Origin: a virus
Length of the DNA: 37,957 nucleotides
Strand: one strand, 5' to 3'
IMG/VR virus record: IMGVR_UViG_3300049830_000126
Coordinates: 1 to 37,957 of that record
The notes beneath the pieces were generated by a model. That model was not told the DNA's origin, ran no database searches, and worked only from the letters and a program-made list of their open reading frames with translations. A program made the translations under genes and the position numbers. Positions within the stretch are counted from its first letter, which is position 1. The number at the start of each line of letters is the position of its first letter. Shown in pieces: positions 2,969 to 28,600 of the stretch.

Positions 2969-3025
2969 AGGGCTCCCCGGCACCCTCCCCCTTCAACCCT
3001 ATGCAATCAGCACTATGGTCCGGGT

Positions 3026-3040
3026 TGGCACGCAATTTGC
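3026..3040 (+). promoter_or_regulatory. Sigma-54-type promoter motif, rightward
   Basis: TGGCACG-CAAT-TTGC matches the -24/-12 consensus for RpoN holoenzyme exactly, with GG (3027-3028) and GC (3039-3040) 10 nt apart. It would start a rightward transcript near 3052, inside the control region, with no gene for about 500 bp. It may serve as a long-leader promoter, an RNA promoter or a binding site only. The match is visible; use by RpoN is inferred. Confidence 0.55.
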
Positions 3041-3064
3041 GCACAGCCTATCGCTAATTGCTGT

Positions 3065-3079
3065 TGGCACGATTCTTGC
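3065..3079 (+). promoter_or_regulatory. Sigma-54-type promoter motif, rightward
   Basis: TGGCACG-ATTC-TTGC is a second exact match to the -24/-12 consensus, 39 bp after the first and on the same strand. Its downstream sequence is also non-coding until 3577. It lies 14 bp from a leftward match, so the two face each other. Confidence 0.55.
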
Positions 3080-3093
3080 GGGGAGGGTATTGC

Positions 3094-3108
3094 GCAATAA
3101 GCGTGCCA
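3094..3108 (-). promoter_or_regulatory. Sigma-54-type promoter motif, leftward
   Basis: On the minus strand this reads TGGCACG-CTTA-TTGC, an exact consensus match. Transcription would begin near 3083 and run into the leftward operon, whose first start codon is at 2799, giving a leader of about 280 nt. No clearer sigma-70 promoter was found for that operon. Confidence 0.55.
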
Positions 3109-3136
3109 ATCACGGCTTGGCCGCCAATTTGCAAAC

Positions 3137-3363
3137 GGGACATTGGGACAGGCAAATGGGACACTGTAAGTTATTGTATTTACTATTATTATTTATTTAT
3201 TTGTCCCATTGTCCCAAAATACCAATAGAGAATGGCAAATAGCTGATAAAAAACGTAATTATAAATGGCGACCAAAATAACGTAGGACAAGTGGGACAAA
3301 GCGTGACAGGTTGTCGAATTCCCCAATGCAATCAGCAACTTGCGAGTGTCCCAATTGTGTCCC
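3137..3363. repeat. Array of TGGGACA/TGTCCCA half-sites around an AT-rich stretch
   Basis: GGGACA occurs at 3137, 3145 and 3158; TGTCCC at 3202 and 3210; GGACA at 3285 followed by GGGACA at 3293; and TGTCCC at 3347 and 3358. Neighbouring half-sites are mostly 8 bp apart, and the first two pairs are inverted with respect to each other across an AT-rich segment. This resembles binding sites for one oligomeric protein, either an origin-binding protein with a DNA-unwinding element or a repressor. Which one cannot be decided from sequence. Confidence 0.55.
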
Positions 3364-3411
3364 GAGTCGATTTAACACTTGGAAAATAATTAATTACCGC
3401 GACAGCCTAGT

Positions 3412-3426
3412 GCAATAAGCGTGCCA
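3412..3426 (-). promoter_or_regulatory. Sigma-54-type promoter motif, leftward
   Basis: The minus strand reads TGGCACG-CTTA-TTGC, exact and identical to the leftward motif at 3094-3108 including the N4 spacer. The two leftward copies share 16 nt, AATAAGCGTGCCA plus flanks on the plus strand, suggesting duplication. It would direct RNA through the half-site array towards 2799. Confidence 0.55.
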
Positions 3427-3440
3427 GCATGACGTAAATT

Positions 3441-3500
3441 GTCACAATGTGACGCGCTACGTCACAATGTGACGCTGCGCGTCACATATATTATTGTCAC
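3441..3500. repeat. Three tandem 20-bp units with GTCACAATGTGAC palindromes
   Basis: Units begin at 3441, 3461 and 3481. The first two carry the perfect inverted repeat GTCACA-A-TGTGAC; the third keeps GTCACA at its start and has another GTCAC at 3496. A 20-bp period places sites on one face of the helix (about two turns). They lie roughly 55-115 bp upstream of the expected start of the first rightward transcript, the normal distance for an enhancer-binding activator of sigma-54, though a repressor operator is also possible. Confidence 0.6.
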
Positions 3501-3528
3501 ATTTCAATAGAATCAATGACTTAGTAGT

Positions 3529-3543
3529 TGGCACGGTAGCTGC
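3529..3543 (+). promoter_or_regulatory. Near-consensus sigma-54-type promoter of the rightward operon
   Basis: TGGCACG-GTAG-CTGC differs from the -24/-12 consensus at one base (C for the first T of TTGC) and keeps GG-N10-GC. The expected start is near 3555, leaving a short leader that contains the AAGGAG element and then ATG at 3577. No convincing sigma-70 -35/-10 pair is seen in this stretch. This is the best placed of the five motifs relative to a gene. Confidence 0.6.
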
Positions 3544-3576
3544 ATGTATTTAGCTAGGCAAGAAGGAGTTCAAACG

Positions 3577-3819
3577 ATGATACCCAAGTCACTACATACC
3601 GTTACGGCATTGGCCAATCTGGGGCGCCATATAGCGTTGGAACAACGCTTTCCGGGCAATTGCGAGCTGGAAGCGGCCGTCAGCATTGCGGCCGCCATCC
3701 TAGGCTATAGCGACGCCGATGACGTGTATGGGCTCAAGGTTAAGGCTACGGCCATTCTTCGCGGTGAGCAATACGCCGCCTACCGCGATGCTGTTGTCGC
3801 GAGCGAGGTGCGGCCATGA
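3577..3819 (+). CDS. Hypothetical protein, first gene of rightward operon
   Basis: The product has 80 aa beginning MIPKSLHTVTALANLGRHIA. The ATG at 3577 is chosen over an earlier in-frame start because AAGGAG precedes it by 9 nt and the earlier start would overlap the promoter. It looks helical, with an Ala-rich middle (AAVSIAAAILGYSDADDV). The family is not recognised. As first gene behind the candidate promoter it is probably made very early, so a host-takeover or regulatory role is plausible but unproven. It ends in an ATGA overlap with the next gene. Confidence 0.7.
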   Translation: MIPKSLHTVTALANLGRHIALEQRFPGNCELEAAVSIAAAILGYSDADDVYGLKVKATAILRGEQYAAYRDAVVASEVRP

Positions 3820-8533: not shown

Positions 8534-8673
8534 AGCGCGCCAAGCCGGAACCGACGCCGGATGTTGACTGGCAATTGCAGCACATGCTAGCGTTACGCGA
8601 ACATGACGCACAGATGGCAGCCAGATATCCGGATTACCGGAGTCTGCTACCGATTGATCCACTACTCGAATAG
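8527..8673 (+). CDS. Hypothetical 48-aa protein
   Basis: The ATG at 8527 overlaps the last 7 nt of the previous gene. The product starts MVKRAKPEPTPDVDWQLQHM, with a basic tip followed by an amphipathic helix and an acidic end. It ends with TAG 8671-8673, which lies inside the AGGAG site of the next gene. It is small and unrecognised. Confidence 0.5.
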   Translation: MVKRAKPEPTPDVDWQLQHMLALREHDAQMAARYPDYRSLLPIDPLLE

Positions 8674-8684
8674 GAGCCCATGAC

Positions 8685-9233
8685 ATGCTTGAGATTCTGA
8701 AAGAGCTTCGCGGGGAATATAACCGTGCGCGACGTGCTGTTGGCTTTAGCGGTTCGACTGCGATAGGCGACGCGCTCGACATTGTGATTGCGCGCCATGA
8801 AAAAGCGAGCACCGGGCAGACTATGGCGTGGCATGGCGGCCTAGGTATTCCGCCAGATCAAAAGCCGGTAGCCGATACCGGCGTGTTCAATGAAGCGTTG
8901 TATGACGATGTTCCCACGTCACCGCGCTGCAAGCAACTGTTGGCCAATCTGTACGAAGCAATGATGCGCGCTGTATATAGCCGGCCGCCCACAGATTACG
9001 AAACGTCATTTGCGCGCGACAATCTGGCAAAATACATCAATGAAATGCAGACGGAACGTGACACTGCGCGCAAAGCCACCGAGTCAGTGCGCCAACAGCT
9101 AGAGGCGTCGCTTAATGACTGCCAATCGCTGCGCGAAAAGAACGCGCAACTACGCGCGGAAACCGACTCTGCCGGCCGAGAAATTTTGCGACTGCTCGAT
9201 ATAGTTGACCGTTACCGGAGAGGCGCATTGTGA
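8685..9233 (+). CDS. Hypothetical protein with C-terminal coiled coil, 182 aa
   Basis: AGGAG lies 8 nt before ATG 8685. Residues 1-100 are mixed helical (MLEILKELRGEYNRARRAVG) and residues about 105-175 form a long coiled coil (QTERDTARKATESVRQQLEA and onward, ending LLDIVDRYRRG). Probably dimeric. It could be a scaffold for a host-targeting complex. The family is not recognised. It ends in a GTGA overlap. Confidence 0.65.
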   Translation: MLEILKELRGEYNRARRAVGFSGSTAIGDALDIVIARHEKASTGQTMAWHGGLGIPPDQKPVADTGVFNEALYDDVPTSPRCKQLLANLYEAMMRAVYSRPPTDYETSFARDNLAKYINEMQTERDTARKATESVRQQLEASLNDCQSLREKNAQLRAETDSAGREILRLLDIVDRYRRGAL

Positions 9234-9856: not shown

Positions 9857-12046
9857 GTGTTCAGCGACTACGTAAACCATGGATGGCGCATTTGCGCCAT
9901 CACGAAGGGGCTCAAGGCGCCAGACTATCCGGGTTGGAACGTCAACCCTATTCCGGCTGAGGCTGCCGACGGGCTCGACGGCGCCGGCCTGCTGCATGCG
10001 CTCAGTGGCACATGCGCCGTGGACATTGACAACATGGCGACCGCCCGCCCGTGGCTGGCTGAGCGCGGGGTTGACATAGACGCGCTGCTCGACGCGCCGG
10101 ATGCCGTAAGAATCGACTCAGGGCGCCCCGGCCGGGCCAAACTGCTCTACCGCCTTACTCGCCCCTTGCGCACCATCAAGCCCGCCCGTATGGGCCTGGA
10201 ATTGCGCTGCGCCACAGGGGAAGGCAAGTCCATGCAGGACGTGCTCCCGCCTACCATTCACCCCGACACCAAGCGGCCCTACGAATGGGCCTACGGCGAC
10301 TTGGCTGACGGCCACTGGTCTAGGCTGCCTGCCATCCCGGCCGCCCTGCTGGCCGTCTGGCGCGAGCTGGCGGCCGGTCCAGAGGCCAGCCCGATAGCGC
10401 CGTCTACCGGCGCCCCGACCGTCGATCTGGTCAAATTGCGCAAGGCAGCATTCCGGCACAGCCCGGATGCCGAGTACGATGAGTGGCTGAAGGTTGGCAT
10501 GCAGCTGCATGACGGCACCCGAGGCGCTCAGGAAGGTTTCGACATCTGGTGCGACTGGTCGCGCGGGATCAAGCGCAAGCCATATCCAGGCGACGGTGTG
10601 CTCAAGGCCCATTGGATGTCATTCAACAGCAGCGGCGGAAAGCATGTCGCGAAGGGCAGCACGCTGGTCGCCGAGCTGCCGGCCGATGCCGATGAGTTCC
10701 CGCTGATCGAGCCCGATGCGCCGGCCGGCCCGGACACCACAGAAGAATTGCTCAAAGCGGCGACGCGCGAACAGCGCAAGGCCAGCATCGAGACGCTCGA
10801 AAAACGTCTGGTCTACATCATCGGGTCGGAAAAATATTTCGATACCGAGCGGCACAAAGTGATCGGCAGCGACAACGCGCTCGAACACATGTTCACGTAC
10901 ATGATGCCCAGGTCGAAGGGCGGCCGGTTGAGCCCGGTCAAGGTGCTCAAGGCCAGCGCCACCAAGCGCTTTGTAGACAACCTAGGTTTTCATCCGGGCG
11001 AGGGCGCGATATTTGCGGCGGGCGACGACACCTTTGCCAATACTTATCGCAATCGCCTGCCCGCCCCGTTAGCGCCTCGCCCGGATGAACTCGAACGTAT
11101 CGAGTGGTTGTTCAATCGCATTGACGATGAGGCGTATCGCACATGGTTGAAGCAGTTCTTCGCGCACGTCGTACAAAAACCCGGCGTCAAAATCAACTCA
11201 GCGCCGCTGATCTGGTCAGAGACTCAGGGCAACGGCAAGACCACGTTGCTGAAGATGATTCCCGCCCTGCTGGTCGGTGCCAACTATTCCAAAGAAGTTA
11301 CCAGCGGCCTGCTGAACAGCGATTTCACGGATTACTTGCTGAATGCATGGCACGTCAACCTGACGGAGTTTCGTGCCGGTACACGCGGCGAGCGCGAGGC
11401 GATTGCCGAGAAGCTGAAACCGTGGATTTCTGACGCCACGATCAGCGTTCACCCCAAAGGACTGCCGGCGTTCACGATGCCGAATGTCTTTTTCGTCACG
11501 GCAACCAGCAACAAGGATGACGCCGCGGCGATCGACAATAACGATCGCCGTTGGGGAATCCACGAAATGAAGGCGCTTCCGTTTACCGAGGATGAGCAGA
11601 CATGGGTATACGAATTTCTACTCAGTGCCCGCGCTGCCGGGGTACTTCGAGCGTATTTTCTTTCGCAGACGATAGATGGGTTTGCGCCAAGTGCGAAGGC
11701 GCCGGAGACGGCAGCACGCCAGGAGATGGCCGAGGCGTCGATTCCGTCGGATATGGAGCTGCTACTGTCGATGTGGGAGCAGCGGAGCGCGCCTTTCGAT
11801 CGCGATGTGGTTCTGACGAATGAGATTGGCGAGTACGTGCGCAAGCATTGCCTAGCCAAACCGTCGAACCATCGTATCGGCAAGATTCTAGCCAAGCCGC
11901 CATTTAACGGAAAACATATTCAGTTTCGGGCCGGCGAAGGGCGGTATCGCGCTATAGCCCTGCGCAACTTCAAACGCTGGGGTGGCACTTCCGGCAAAGA
12001 AATAATGGCGCATATTTCCGGCGAAGATATTGACATCACTTCGTAG
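9857..12046 (+). CDS. Bifunctional primase-helicase (Prim-Pol + PriCT + SF3-type helicase)
   Basis: This 729-aa protein primes and unwinds DNA at the fork. Residues about 1-180 form an archaeo-eukaryotic-type primase-polymerase domain with the catalytic DxD (VDID, 55-58) and the SGRPGRAKLLYRL strand. Residues about 190-275 match a primase C-terminal domain (YDEWLKVGMQLHDG, FDIWCDWSRG). From about 300 there is a D5/VirE-like SF3-type ATPase with Walker A TQGNGKTTLL (about 455-464), then HVNLTEFRAG and FFVTATSN. The start is GTG 9857, with no ATG earlier in frame. The final codons overlap a sigma-70-type promoter. It heads the replication block. Assignment of the overall class is confident; exact helicase polarity is unknown. 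Confidence 0.9.
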   Translation: MFSDYVNHGWRICAITKGLKAPDYPGWNVNPIPAEAADGLDGAGLLHALSGTCAVDIDNMATARPWLAERGVDIDALLDAPDAVRIDSGRPGRAKLLYRLTRPLRTIKPARMGLELRCATGEGKSMQDVLPPTIHPDTKRPYEWAYGDLADGHWSRLPAIPAALLAVWRELAAGPEASPIAPSTGAPTVDLVKLRKAAFRHSPDAEYDEWLKVGMQLHDGTRGAQEGFDIWCDWSRGIKRKPYPGDGVLKAHWMSFNSSGGKHVAKGSTLVAELPADADEFPLIEPDAPAGPDTTEELLKAATREQRKASIETLEKRLVYIIGSEKYFDTERHKVIGSDNALEHMFTYMMPRSKGGRLSPVKVLKASATKRFVDNLGFHPGEGAIFAAGDDTFANTYRNRLPAPLAPRPDELERIEWLFNRIDDEAYRTWLKQFFAHVVQKPGVKINSAPLIWSETQGNGKTTLLKMIPALLVGANYSKEVTSGLLNSDFTDYLLNAWHVNLTEFRAGTRGEREAIAEKLKPWISDATISVHPKGLPAFTMPNVFFVTATSNKDDAAAIDNNDRRWGIHEMKALPFTEDEQTWVYEFLLSARAAGVLRAYFLSQTIDGFAPSAKAPETAARQEMAEASIPSDMELLLSMWEQRSAPFDRDVVLTNEIGEYVRKHCLAKPSNHRIGKILAKPPFNGKHIQFRAGEGRYRAIALRNFKRWGGTSGKEIMAHISGEDIDITS

Positions 12047-12057
12047 CAGCGTATGCT
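12030..12057 (+). promoter_or_regulatory. Sigma-70-type promoter inside the end of the primase gene
   Basis: TTGACA at 12030-12035 and TATGCT at 12052-12057 are separated by 16 bp. The -35 is perfect and the -10 matches 4 of 6. It would start RNA near 12064, about 30 nt before the AT-hook gene at 12093. It would let the rest of the replication block be transcribed independently of the sigma-54-type start. Confidence 0.55.
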
Positions 12058-12092: not shown

Positions 12093-12596
12093 ATGTCCCA
12101 AGCCACTCGCTGTGTCGCCCTGCAAAATGCAGTTGCGATTGCAGCGCACACCAAGACCAGCGACGTCGCCGCGGTACTCGCGATTGCCGAGCAGATGCAC
12201 ACGTTTCTGAACAGCGACGAAGTGCAGCAGATTGTTCCCGCGGGAACACCAGCCGCTGCGCCGAAGCCGGCAGCTCCCGCCCCGGTCGCCGCGCCGAAGA
12301 ATCCTGTCGGCCGTCCGCCGAAGGCCAAGCCCGCCAAGACCGAGGAACAGCTGGTCGCCGAGGCCACTGCTGCGGCCGCTGCCGAAGCGGAAGCCGATGA
12401 CTCGCCGGTTGCCACGAAGGAAGATGCGGGCAAGGCGCTGAATGCGCTGCTGTCTGCCAATCTGCGCGCGCAAGCTGTCGCACTGCTGAAGAAATTTGGC
12501 GCTGCCAGCCTGTCGCTCATTCCGGCGGATAAATACGGCGAGTTCGTCGCCGAGGCGAATGCGCTGCTGCCGAGCGAAGGGGAACTGACCGACTGA
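12093..12596 (+). CDS. AT-hook-containing replication-block protein
   Basis: TAGGAG lies 8 nt before ATG 12093. The 167-aa chain has a helical N-terminus (MSQATRCVALQNAVAIAAHT), a Pro/Ala linker with an AT-hook-like core KNPVGRPPKAKPAK (about residues 69-82), an Ala/Glu-rich acidic segment, and a C-terminal domain (AVALLKKFGAASLSLIPADK) that I associate with phage proteins lying next to ssDNA-binding proteins. The likely role is binding minor-groove DNA or tethering a replisome part. This is motif-based inference. It ends TGATG. Confidence 0.65.
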   Translation: MSQATRCVALQNAVAIAAHTKTSDVAAVLAIAEQMHTFLNSDEVQQIVPAGTPAAAPKPAAPAPVAAPKNPVGRPPKAKPAKTEEQLVAEATAAAAAEAEADDSPVATKEDAGKALNALLSANLRAQAVALLKKFGAASLSLIPADKYGEFVAEANALLPSEGELTD

Positions 12597-12610
12597 TGAA
12601 CCGAGTCCTA

Positions 12611-12786
12611 CCCAGCACGCCGTCAGCGGACGGCATACGCGGTGCGGCGCTCTGCTCCACGGTAGTTACACCGGGCCGAAAGGCCAAAGGACGGACGGCG
12701 TGCTGGGAAAGGGCCGAGGATGTTTTGCGGGGCGCCCGTGGGTCGTGACCGAACGGTTCCGGGTTACTACCGGGCCGGCGGGCGCC
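12611..12786 (+). ncRNA. Candidate structured RNA in a replication-block gap
   Basis: The 220-bp gap before 12819 holds strong inverted repeats. A perfect 14-bp stem joins 12611-12624 (CCCAGCACGCCGTC) with 12694-12707, enclosing 69 nt. Inside, CGGT/ACCG (12660-12663 with 12670-12673) and GGCC-GAAA-GGCC (12674-12685, a GNRA tetraloop) stack. A second domain is closed by GGCGCCCG (12731-12738) with CGGGCGCC (12779-12786). CGGTAGT (12660-12666) can instead pair with ACTACCG (12766-12772), so two mutually exclusive folds exist. The AGGAG of the next gene lies just downstream, so a cis-acting leader is as likely as a free RNA. A 50-aa frame at 12596-12748 overlaps it. No known RNA family is recognised. 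Confidence 0.45.
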
Positions 12787-12818
12787 GCGTAAAGCATCTT
12801 CTATTACAGGAGTGTACA

Positions 12819-12998
12819 ATGACAGGCATAGAAGCAAGCATGGCATTGGCCATAGTTGGCAGCTTGGTAATTCTTACCAGTGTTTTGACCGACGAAACCC
12901 GTCAACTTCACCTATGGGAAAAGATCGGCGCCGCAGTTGGCGTCGCGTTTGTGCTCCCTTTGGTTGCGCGTTTGTTTTCAGCGGCGATCCTTTTGTGA
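12819..12998 (+). CDS. 59-aa two-helix membrane protein
   Basis: AGGAG lies 8 nt before ATG 12819; a longer frame upstream runs through the structured gap and is rejected. The product MTGIEASMALAIVGSLVILT and so on has two hydrophobic helices (about 7-22 and 37-58) separated by a charged loop (DETRQLHLWEK). It could be a membrane anchor or a host-membrane effector. No family is recognised. Confidence 0.6.
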   Translation: MTGIEASMALAIVGSLVILTSVLTDETRQLHLWEKIGAAVGVAFVLPLVARLFSAAILL

Positions 12999-15653: not shown

Positions 15654-15680
15654 GCCGGGGTTGTGAGCCCCGGCTCTTTT
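15654..15680 (+). terminator. Rho-independent terminator after the ssDNA-binding protein gene
   Basis: GCCGGGG (15654-15660), loop TTGTGAG, CCCCGGC (15668-15674), then TCTTTT. A 7-bp GC stem with a short U run lies 11 nt after the stop codon. The U run is short, so it may attenuate rather than fully stop reading into 15692. Confidence 0.7.
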
Positions 15681-26847: not shown

Positions 26848-27479
26848 ATGTTGAACCCTTCGCCTATCATCACGTTGATAGTGAACAGCTCGGAGGCTGC
26901 AGACGTAACGCACAACCCAACCTGTAGACCGGCTACGGTCGTATCGAATCCGGCGGAAATTGCAGTGAGCACTGACTGCTGTACGGTCAAGTGGCCGGTA
27001 GTCTGCAAATTGTGCGTCATGCTGAATTCGCCGACCATGATGCCGGAAGCACCGACCGACCGCATGACGGCGATAATCTCAATCCAGCCTTCGTCGGCGA
27101 CAGCCGTGCCGGCTGGCTTTGTGAAAGATACGCGCGCCGCATCCGCGGTAGACGCGTTTGTTCCGACTGCAATATCGAACACGCTGGTGCCCGCGCCAGC
27201 GCCGGTTTTCGACAACCCGATTTTCCACTTGAAGCAGGTGTTTGACTGCATCTTGTTGCTCGAAATCGGAATGTTCGACCCGGTGATGTAAGTGCGGGTG
27301 GCGGCGGCCGGCGCCTGCGCACTAGCCTGTGGGGCAGGTACCTGCGCGCGTTGATAGGTTCCGAATATGGCGTTGCTGTTCTTGAAGCAGATATAGCCGT
27401 TTGTGTCGCCGTATATAATGCCCGATCCGTTTGGCGGATTGACCGGCGCACTCTGCACATCAACTTGAATGTCAGACAT
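26844..27479 (-). CDS. Virion protein with fibre-like beta segments, 211 aa
   Basis: ATG 27479 overlaps the TAA of the fibre gene (TAATG). It starts MSDIQVDVQSAPVNPPNGSG, and its body (FDIAVGTNASTADAARVSFT and FSMTHNLQTTGHLTVQQSVL) is beta-rich and Ser/Thr/Gly-rich, typical of fibre tips. It follows the collagen-like shaft, so it may be the tip or head domain, but no family is recognised. Confidence 0.6.
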   Translation of the reverse strand: MSDIQVDVQSAPVNPPNGSGIIYGDTNGYICFKNSNAIFGTYQRAQVPAPQASAQAPAAATRTYITGSNIPISSNKMQSNTCFKWKIGLSKTGAGAGTSVFDIAVGTNASTADAARVSFTKPAGTAVADEGWIEIIAVMRSVGASGIMVGEFSMTHNLQTTGHLTVQQSVLTAISAGFDTTVAGLQVGLCVTSAASELFTINVMIGEGFNI

Positions 27480-28600
27480 TACATCACCCGTAGTCGCGCG
27501 GTACCAGCAAGTGTTGCCCGCTCAATTCTGATAAGTATAAGATGGTTGACCATCGAGGCGTAGTAGCCGTTCGGGATATTGAAAATACCCGGTGCGTACG
27601 GCCGAATGGAAATCGTCTCGGGCGCTTTGGCCGCGGCAGAATCCCAGCCGTCGGTGCCTGGATCGCCGTCGAGCCCGGCAATACCCGGCAAGCCCTGCAA
27701 ACCTTGTGCACCCTGCATGCCCGGCATACCGGGGTTACCGTCCATGCCCATATCGGCTTCTAGATATGTGGCAACCCCGGCCGGGCCTGGAACACCAGAC
27801 AACCCCATCGGGCCGGGCGGCCCAAGGTCGCCATCCGGGCCGGGGTCGGCTTCGAGGTAGACGGGCGGCCCGATCGGGCCTTGAGCGCCTGTGAGCCCCT
27901 GCAACCCCATCGGCCCCATATCACCATCTGCGCCCATGTCCGCTTCTAGATAGACAGCCGGACCCGCCGGCCCCGAGCCGCCGGTAAACCCTTGCGGCCC
28001 CATCGGGCCGGGGTCGCCATCGGTGCCCGGATCGCCGTCCATGCCGGGATTGCCCTGTGGCCCCTGAGCGCCTGTGAGCCCCTGCGGGCCGACCGGGCCG
28101 ATAGGGCCTATATCGCCATCGGCGCCAGGATCGCCGTCCATGCCGGGGTTGCCCTGCGGTCCTTGGGCACCTGTAGCCCCAGCGGCGCCTGCCGCGCCTG
28201 CCGCGCCCGGCGGACCAGGATCGCCGTCGGCCCCTTGCTCGCCATCCATGCCCGGACGGCCAAGCGCACCGTCCGCGCCCGCGCGGCCCGGCGGCCCTAT
28301 CGGACCAGCCTCACCCTCGATCGGATCATCAAATTGGATAGGGATGGGTGCCGTCAGGTAGATCGGTACGCTGCCCACGATCGGGCCGCCGCCCCCGAGG
28401 CCGGGGCCTGGCGCCAGACTGGCCAGTCCGCCAACACCGCCGGCCGGCGTCGTGGTCGAAGTTATGCCGAGCGCGGCTTTGAGCTGCGCCAGCGTGACCG
28501 TCTGGCCGGCGAATTCGGCAATCACCGTCGCCAGAGTTGCATCTGGGATGGTGACTGTTTTCCGAACGCCGCCGATGACGGGAAGCTGAATCTTACGCAT
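27479..28600 (-). CDS. Collagen-like tail fibre protein
   Basis: The 373-aa protein begins MRKIQLPVIGGVRKTVTIPD. From about residue 95 to 320 it is almost entirely Gly-X-Y triplets (GPPGRAGADGALGRPGMDGE style). Three interruptions share the sequence (V/T)YLEAD(M/P)G, dividing the collagen into modules that each restart with DG..GP.G(L/P). The shaft should form a trimeric triple helix in a virion fibre. The last 50 residues form a folded tip (ISIRPYAPGIFNIPNGYYAS). Its G-X-Y repeats are recognisable; attachment site and receptor are unknown. Confidence 0.8.
   Translation of the reverse strand: MRKIQLPVIGGVRKTVTIPDATLATVIAEFAGQTVTLAQLKAALGITSTTTPAGGVGGLASLAPGPGLGGGGPIVGSVPIYLTAPIPIQFDDPIEGEAGPIGPPGRAGADGALGRPGMDGEQGADGDPGPPGAAGAAGAAGATGAQGPQGNPGMDGDPGADGDIGPIGPVGPQGLTGAQGPQGNPGMDGDPGTDGDPGPMGPQGFTGGSGPAGPAVYLEADMGADGDMGPMGLQGLTGAQGPIGPPVYLEADPGPDGDLGPPGPMGLSGVPGPAGVATYLEADMGMDGNPGMPGMQGAQGLQGLPGIAGLDGDPGTDGWDSAAAKAPETISIRPYAPGIFNIPNGYYASMVNHLILIRIERATLAGTARLRVM

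Follow-up and report, generated by a model that had tools for sequence, protein, structure and literature searches.

A strongly structured, apparently non-coding RNA element between two genes in the replication block of an uncultured phage

The gap and its genomic setting

The window analysed here is the whole of IMG/VR virus record IMGVR_UViG_3300049830_000126, a stretch of 37,957 bases from an uncultured phage. The region of interest is a 222-base gap (12597–12818) inside the replication block, which is transcribed rightward. Upstream lie a Prim-Pol primase gene (9857–12046, rightward) and a gene for an Ala/Pro/Lys-rich protein of 167 amino acids (12093–12596, + strand), related to phrog_18562 and phrog_408 (unknown function). 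An earlier note on this DNA had put an independent promoter at 12030, ahead of the gap; a sigma-70-type promoter-like site is indeed present there (TTGACA-16-TATGCT, 12030–12057, + strand), but it directly precedes the 12093–12596 gene, not the gap. Downstream, an AGGAG Shine-Dalgarno sequence (12808–12812), also claimed previously, is found ahead of the ATG (12819) of a 59-amino-acid predicted small membrane protein (12819–12998, + strand; no family match). This gene is followed by a 78-amino-acid gene, a DUF2800 exonuclease, an Enc34-type single-stranded DNA-binding protein (SSB), and a DNA polymerase A-like gene. Scans with the 59-amino-acid protein and with the DUF2800 protein found no relatives.

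Several other features of the record were observed. The primase reading frame holds a perfect 15-bp inverted repeat (10989–11003/11075–11089), where the − strand is strongly folded. An AT-rich, apparently non-coding region lies between the leftward late genes and the rightward early genes (3000–3590); it carries the repeated motifs GTGACG/GTCACA, GGCACG/CGTGCC, and TGGGACA/TGTCCCA, and is a candidate replication origin or operator region. In the tail region, a protein encoded on the − strand (27479–28600) contains collagen-like repeats (Pfam Collagen, E 1e-30).

Two reading frames overlap the gap. The first, a 50-amino-acid frame (12596–12748, + strand), has a codon score of −0.18, where real genes cut into 50-codon pieces score 0.34 ± 0.16, and is probably not coding. 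The second, a 92-amino-acid in-frame extension of the membrane protein, scores −0.31; both resemble wrong frames. The RNA of the gap is apparently non-coding, in line with the gene-free gap first described.

Fold and strand bias of the gap

On the + strand, the gap folds at −123 kcal/mol, compared with −92.8 ± 4.9 kcal/mol for dinucleotide shuffles (z −6.2; none of 200 shuffles was as stable). The − strand fold is far weaker (−94.8 kcal/mol, z −2.2). Of 510 equally long segments taken along the record, the gap ranks first in + strand stability once G+C content is corrected for (z −4.3); its − strand does not stand out (z −0.4). The structure is real, with a stability above chance, and the strongly structured RNA proposed earlier is borne out for the + strand.

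The fold consists of two closed domains. Domain 1 (12605–12714, + strand) has a 5-pair base (12605–12609/12710–12714), a perfect 14-bp stem, present as an inverted repeat (12611–12624/12694–12707), and three arms (12625–12656, 12660–12673, and 12674–12685), the last of which is the GNRA-capped hairpin expected from the earlier description (GAAA cap). Pair probabilities are near 1 for the 14-bp stem and about 0.7–0.77 for the small arms. Domain 2 (12716–12801, + strand), likewise anticipated as a second closed domain, is a rod whose arms (12716–12738/12779–12801) provide 24 paired positions in register with one mismatch: 19 Watson-Crick pairs, four G-U pairs, no A-C, and one G-G (12730/12787). 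The tip of the rod is uncertain in the predicted fold.

The two domains differ in strand bias. Domain 1 has practically none (z −4.2 on +, −4.1 on −), while domain 2 is far more stable on the + strand (z −6.3 vs −1.9); the lower − strand stability of the gap arises mainly because domain 2 uses G·U pairs. Random decay of a DNA palindrome gives G-U and A-C mismatches at equal frequency, so the four-to-none bias in domain 2 is suggestive (1 in 16), and it agrees with the energy asymmetry between the strands. Together, the strand asymmetry and the presence of G-U without A-C point to a constraint acting on the + strand transcript.

These observations bear on the possibility that the gap is a DNA-level element, either what is left of a mobile palindrome or a signal used in single-strand replication or packaging, of which the RNA fold is a by-product. 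The extra length compared with the closest relative (see below) resembles an insertion, and domain 1 alone has equal stability on both strands. Against this stand the strong strand bias of domain 2, the failure to find a second copy in the record or a convincing match elsewhere, and the more origin-like repeats at 3000–3590. We regard a DNA-level element as very improbable.

A 7-bp match between 12660–12666 and 12766–12772 had been proposed as an alternative pairing that rearranges domain 1. The two sequences are indeed complementary, but the predicted probability of their pairing is 0, and forcing it gives a fold of −97 vs −123 kcal/mol, 26 kcal/mol worse. As a pseudoknot that spares both stems, the pairing gains about as much as it loses before the pseudoknot penalty is counted (−8.9 gained, 8.2 lost). 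Moreover, such 7-mer matches are no more frequent than chance (2 observed vs 3.2 expected). The proposed switch is not supported: the pairing does not come near the main fold in stability, as a conformational switch would require.

The same results weigh on a second reading, in which the gap is a cis-acting leader controlling translation of the 59-amino-acid membrane protein, for instance by refolding as it is transcribed or through a protein ligand. The position directly 5' of the AGGAG of that gene favours a leader, as does the observation that small membrane-like proteins also precede the DUF2800 gene in three related phages (L007, L010, and L012, introduced below) and in Acinetobacter phage 4316. 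However, the AGGAG lies outside both domains and is not buried in any stable stem, the alternative pairing is costly and at chance frequency, and no motif is conserved across the relatives. A leader role is, we think, rather unlikely.

The same position in related phages

Searches of viral contigs with the primase yielded twelve relatives (51–64% primase identity); a primase scan of genome contigs yielded none. A phrog_18562/408-like gene lies near the primase in all twelve, and directly after it in all except L003, where two genes intervene. A −35-like TTGACA or TTGACT is kept at the 3' end of the primase gene in most relatives, and promoter-like sites 5' of the phrog_18562/408-like gene are found in this phage and several relatives.

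Hairpins in the relatives were surveyed by eye on the sequence, and some gaps were also folded. A hairpin directly follows the stop codon of the phrog_18562/408-like gene in nine of the twelve: five are terminator-like, with a U-run (L003, L012, L025, L026, and L032), and four lack the U-run (L002, L004, L007, and L023). The remaining three have no simple hairpin directly after the stop. In L029 the genes overlap at this position, and L005 has no hairpin. L010 has a reading frame (8626–8815, about 60 codons) that overlaps the upstream stop codon (GTGA) and encodes a basic protein; a hairpin follows further downstream. In phage BPP-1, bbp35 matches phrog_18562, and the next gene starts only a few bases downstream. 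The closest relative, L002, has a gap of 54 nt; the 222-base element is four times longer.

The hairpins of L004 (9662–9716) and L023 (4174–4227) can be compared base by base, once the L023 loop is padded with one N so that the alignment stays in register. Their 14 pairs include eight compensatory double changes and no broken pair, and the sequences GGGAAAG and ACAGC are conserved; there is no Rfam match at the gathering threshold. Although two sequences are a small sample, the changes show that at least one further lineage keeps structure at the gap position.

No homologue of the element itself was found. Rfam gave no match at the gathering threshold over the window, in agreement with the earlier statement that no family is recognised, and the best sub-threshold matches near the gap at relaxed thresholds were weak and unrelated. 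DNA searches of phages and plasmids, and exact-motif searches of viral and genome contigs, returned a few matches of 17–22 shared bases without extension. No copy was found in the whole records of seven relatives, either by DNA search or with a single-sequence covariance model (R1), and no second copy within the phage's own record. A covariance model of the L004/L023 hairpin (R2) scored at best 5.5 bits in the gap, with stems missing, compared with 71–78 bits for its founders. Kinship through the common GGGAAAG was rejected, R2 finding no extension beyond the motif; a scan for the motif returned the two founders and three unrelated matches only. Two other candidates were set aside. Domain 1 had seemed to resemble the L007 hairpin, but the alignment score was no better than that of shuffles (69 of 200 as high). 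For a hammerhead, suggested by CUGAUGA at 12593–12599, inspection found no stem II/GAAA arrangement and Rfam no match.

These searches bear on a third reading: that both domains form a mature small RNA, cut from the read-through transcript or standing alone, with trans-acting effects on targets in the host or the phage. In its favour are the compactness, high stability, and clear ends of the two closed domains, and the lack of a coding signal in the gap. Yet no homologue was found in phages, plasmids, or the seven relatives' records, no Rfam family matches, and a promoter scan found no promoter-like site inside the gap; we consider a small RNA unlikely. It is decidedly doubtful that the gap encodes a hitherto undescribed phage non-coding RNA, roughly 200 nt long and of no known family, that is released from the replication transcript by excision to act in trans or as part of an RNA machine.

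A gene-boundary element and its known counterparts

Most probably, the gap holds a gene-boundary element that has become enlarged, and not a new switch. In its specific form, this reading has the 3' end of a one-gene cassette in the replication operon marked by an intercistronic RNA structure that is oversized and particular to this lineage; it has, in our judgement, about an even chance of being right. The cassette would comprise the promoter, the phrog_18562/408-like gene, and a hairpin, with the boundary hairpin replaced or enlarged in this phage by the two-domain RNA. An element of the 3' end or intercistronic type is indicated because five of the twelve relatives carry terminator-like hairpins at this position. 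The SSB gene of the same phage also ends in a terminator-like hairpin (GCCGGGGTTGTGAGCCCCGGC, 15654–15674, then TCTTTTC, just 3' of the gene), which supports the boundary reading, as does the near-equal score of the U-rich tail of domain 2 (2.6 vs 2.59 for the SSB terminator). Further support comes from the high stability seen on the transcribed strand only, the G-U pairs without A-C in domain 2, the hairpins after the stop codon in nine of the twelve relatives, the promoter-like sites ahead of the same gene, and the structure kept in L004 and L023.

Three points count against it. Firstly, domain 2 does not look like a classical terminator: it has a long stem, but its base is AU/GU-rich, a large structured loop of about 40 nt separates the arms, and the U-rich tail (UUCUAUUA, 12799–12806, + strand), which overlaps the base, is weak. 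The tail scores 2.6, compared with 4.1 for L026; it is also below L032. A terminator scan with a loop limit of 3–8 left domain 2 unflagged. Secondly, 222 bases exceed what a boundary hairpin needs (the whole gap of L002 is 54 nt). Thirdly, L005, L010, and L029 manage without a simple hairpin after the stop, and BPP-1 with a few bases.

We infer the following mechanism for the boundary element. Read-through transcripts would fold into both domains. Exonucleases attacking the upstream message would be blocked at its 3' end by domain 1. The domain 2 rod, about two helical turns long, may be a target for an RNase III-type enzyme and/or slow RNA polymerase down or make it terminate in part; a hairpin would then be left immediately before the ribosome-binding site of the next gene. 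The net outcome would be unequal dosage of the upstream protein and the downstream membrane-protein and exonuclease genes. Given the weak U-tail, clean termination is the less favoured option, behind processing or a barrier.

If the boundary reading is correct, a gene of unknown function that is kept beside the primase in a group of phages has its own expression cassette, the 3' boundary of which changes fast: a terminator, a covarying hairpin, or a large two-domain RNA. Such boundaries would offer a natural series for testing how RNA structure sets dosage inside dense phage operons.

Four known structures invite comparison. The phi29-type packaging RNA is a two-domain phage RNA of roughly similar length. 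The gap element differs in that it is not at a genome end and matches no Rfam family; with no other sign of such a role, the packaging RNA suggested earlier is not upheld. The L004/L023 hairpin shares its position, a two-domain layout, and GGGAAAG at the domain junction with the gap element, but its stems and internal loop differ, and R2 finds no match in the gap. Intrinsic (rho-independent) terminators and 3' mRNA hairpins resemble the gap element in lying directly after a stop codon, as the terminator-like hairpins of the five relatives do; they differ in that the gap element has two large domains, branched or large loops, and a weaker U-tail than L026. Finally, T7-type RNase III intercistronic sites are long duplexes between phage operon genes, the cutting of which leaves hairpins at message ends. 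While no sequence relation to the gap element is known, domain 2 likewise is a long, near-continuous duplex between operon genes, pairing at 23 of 24 positions in register where such sites have about 20 bp or more. By its stem length, and on what is generally known of such sites, domain 2 is a candidate RNase III site.
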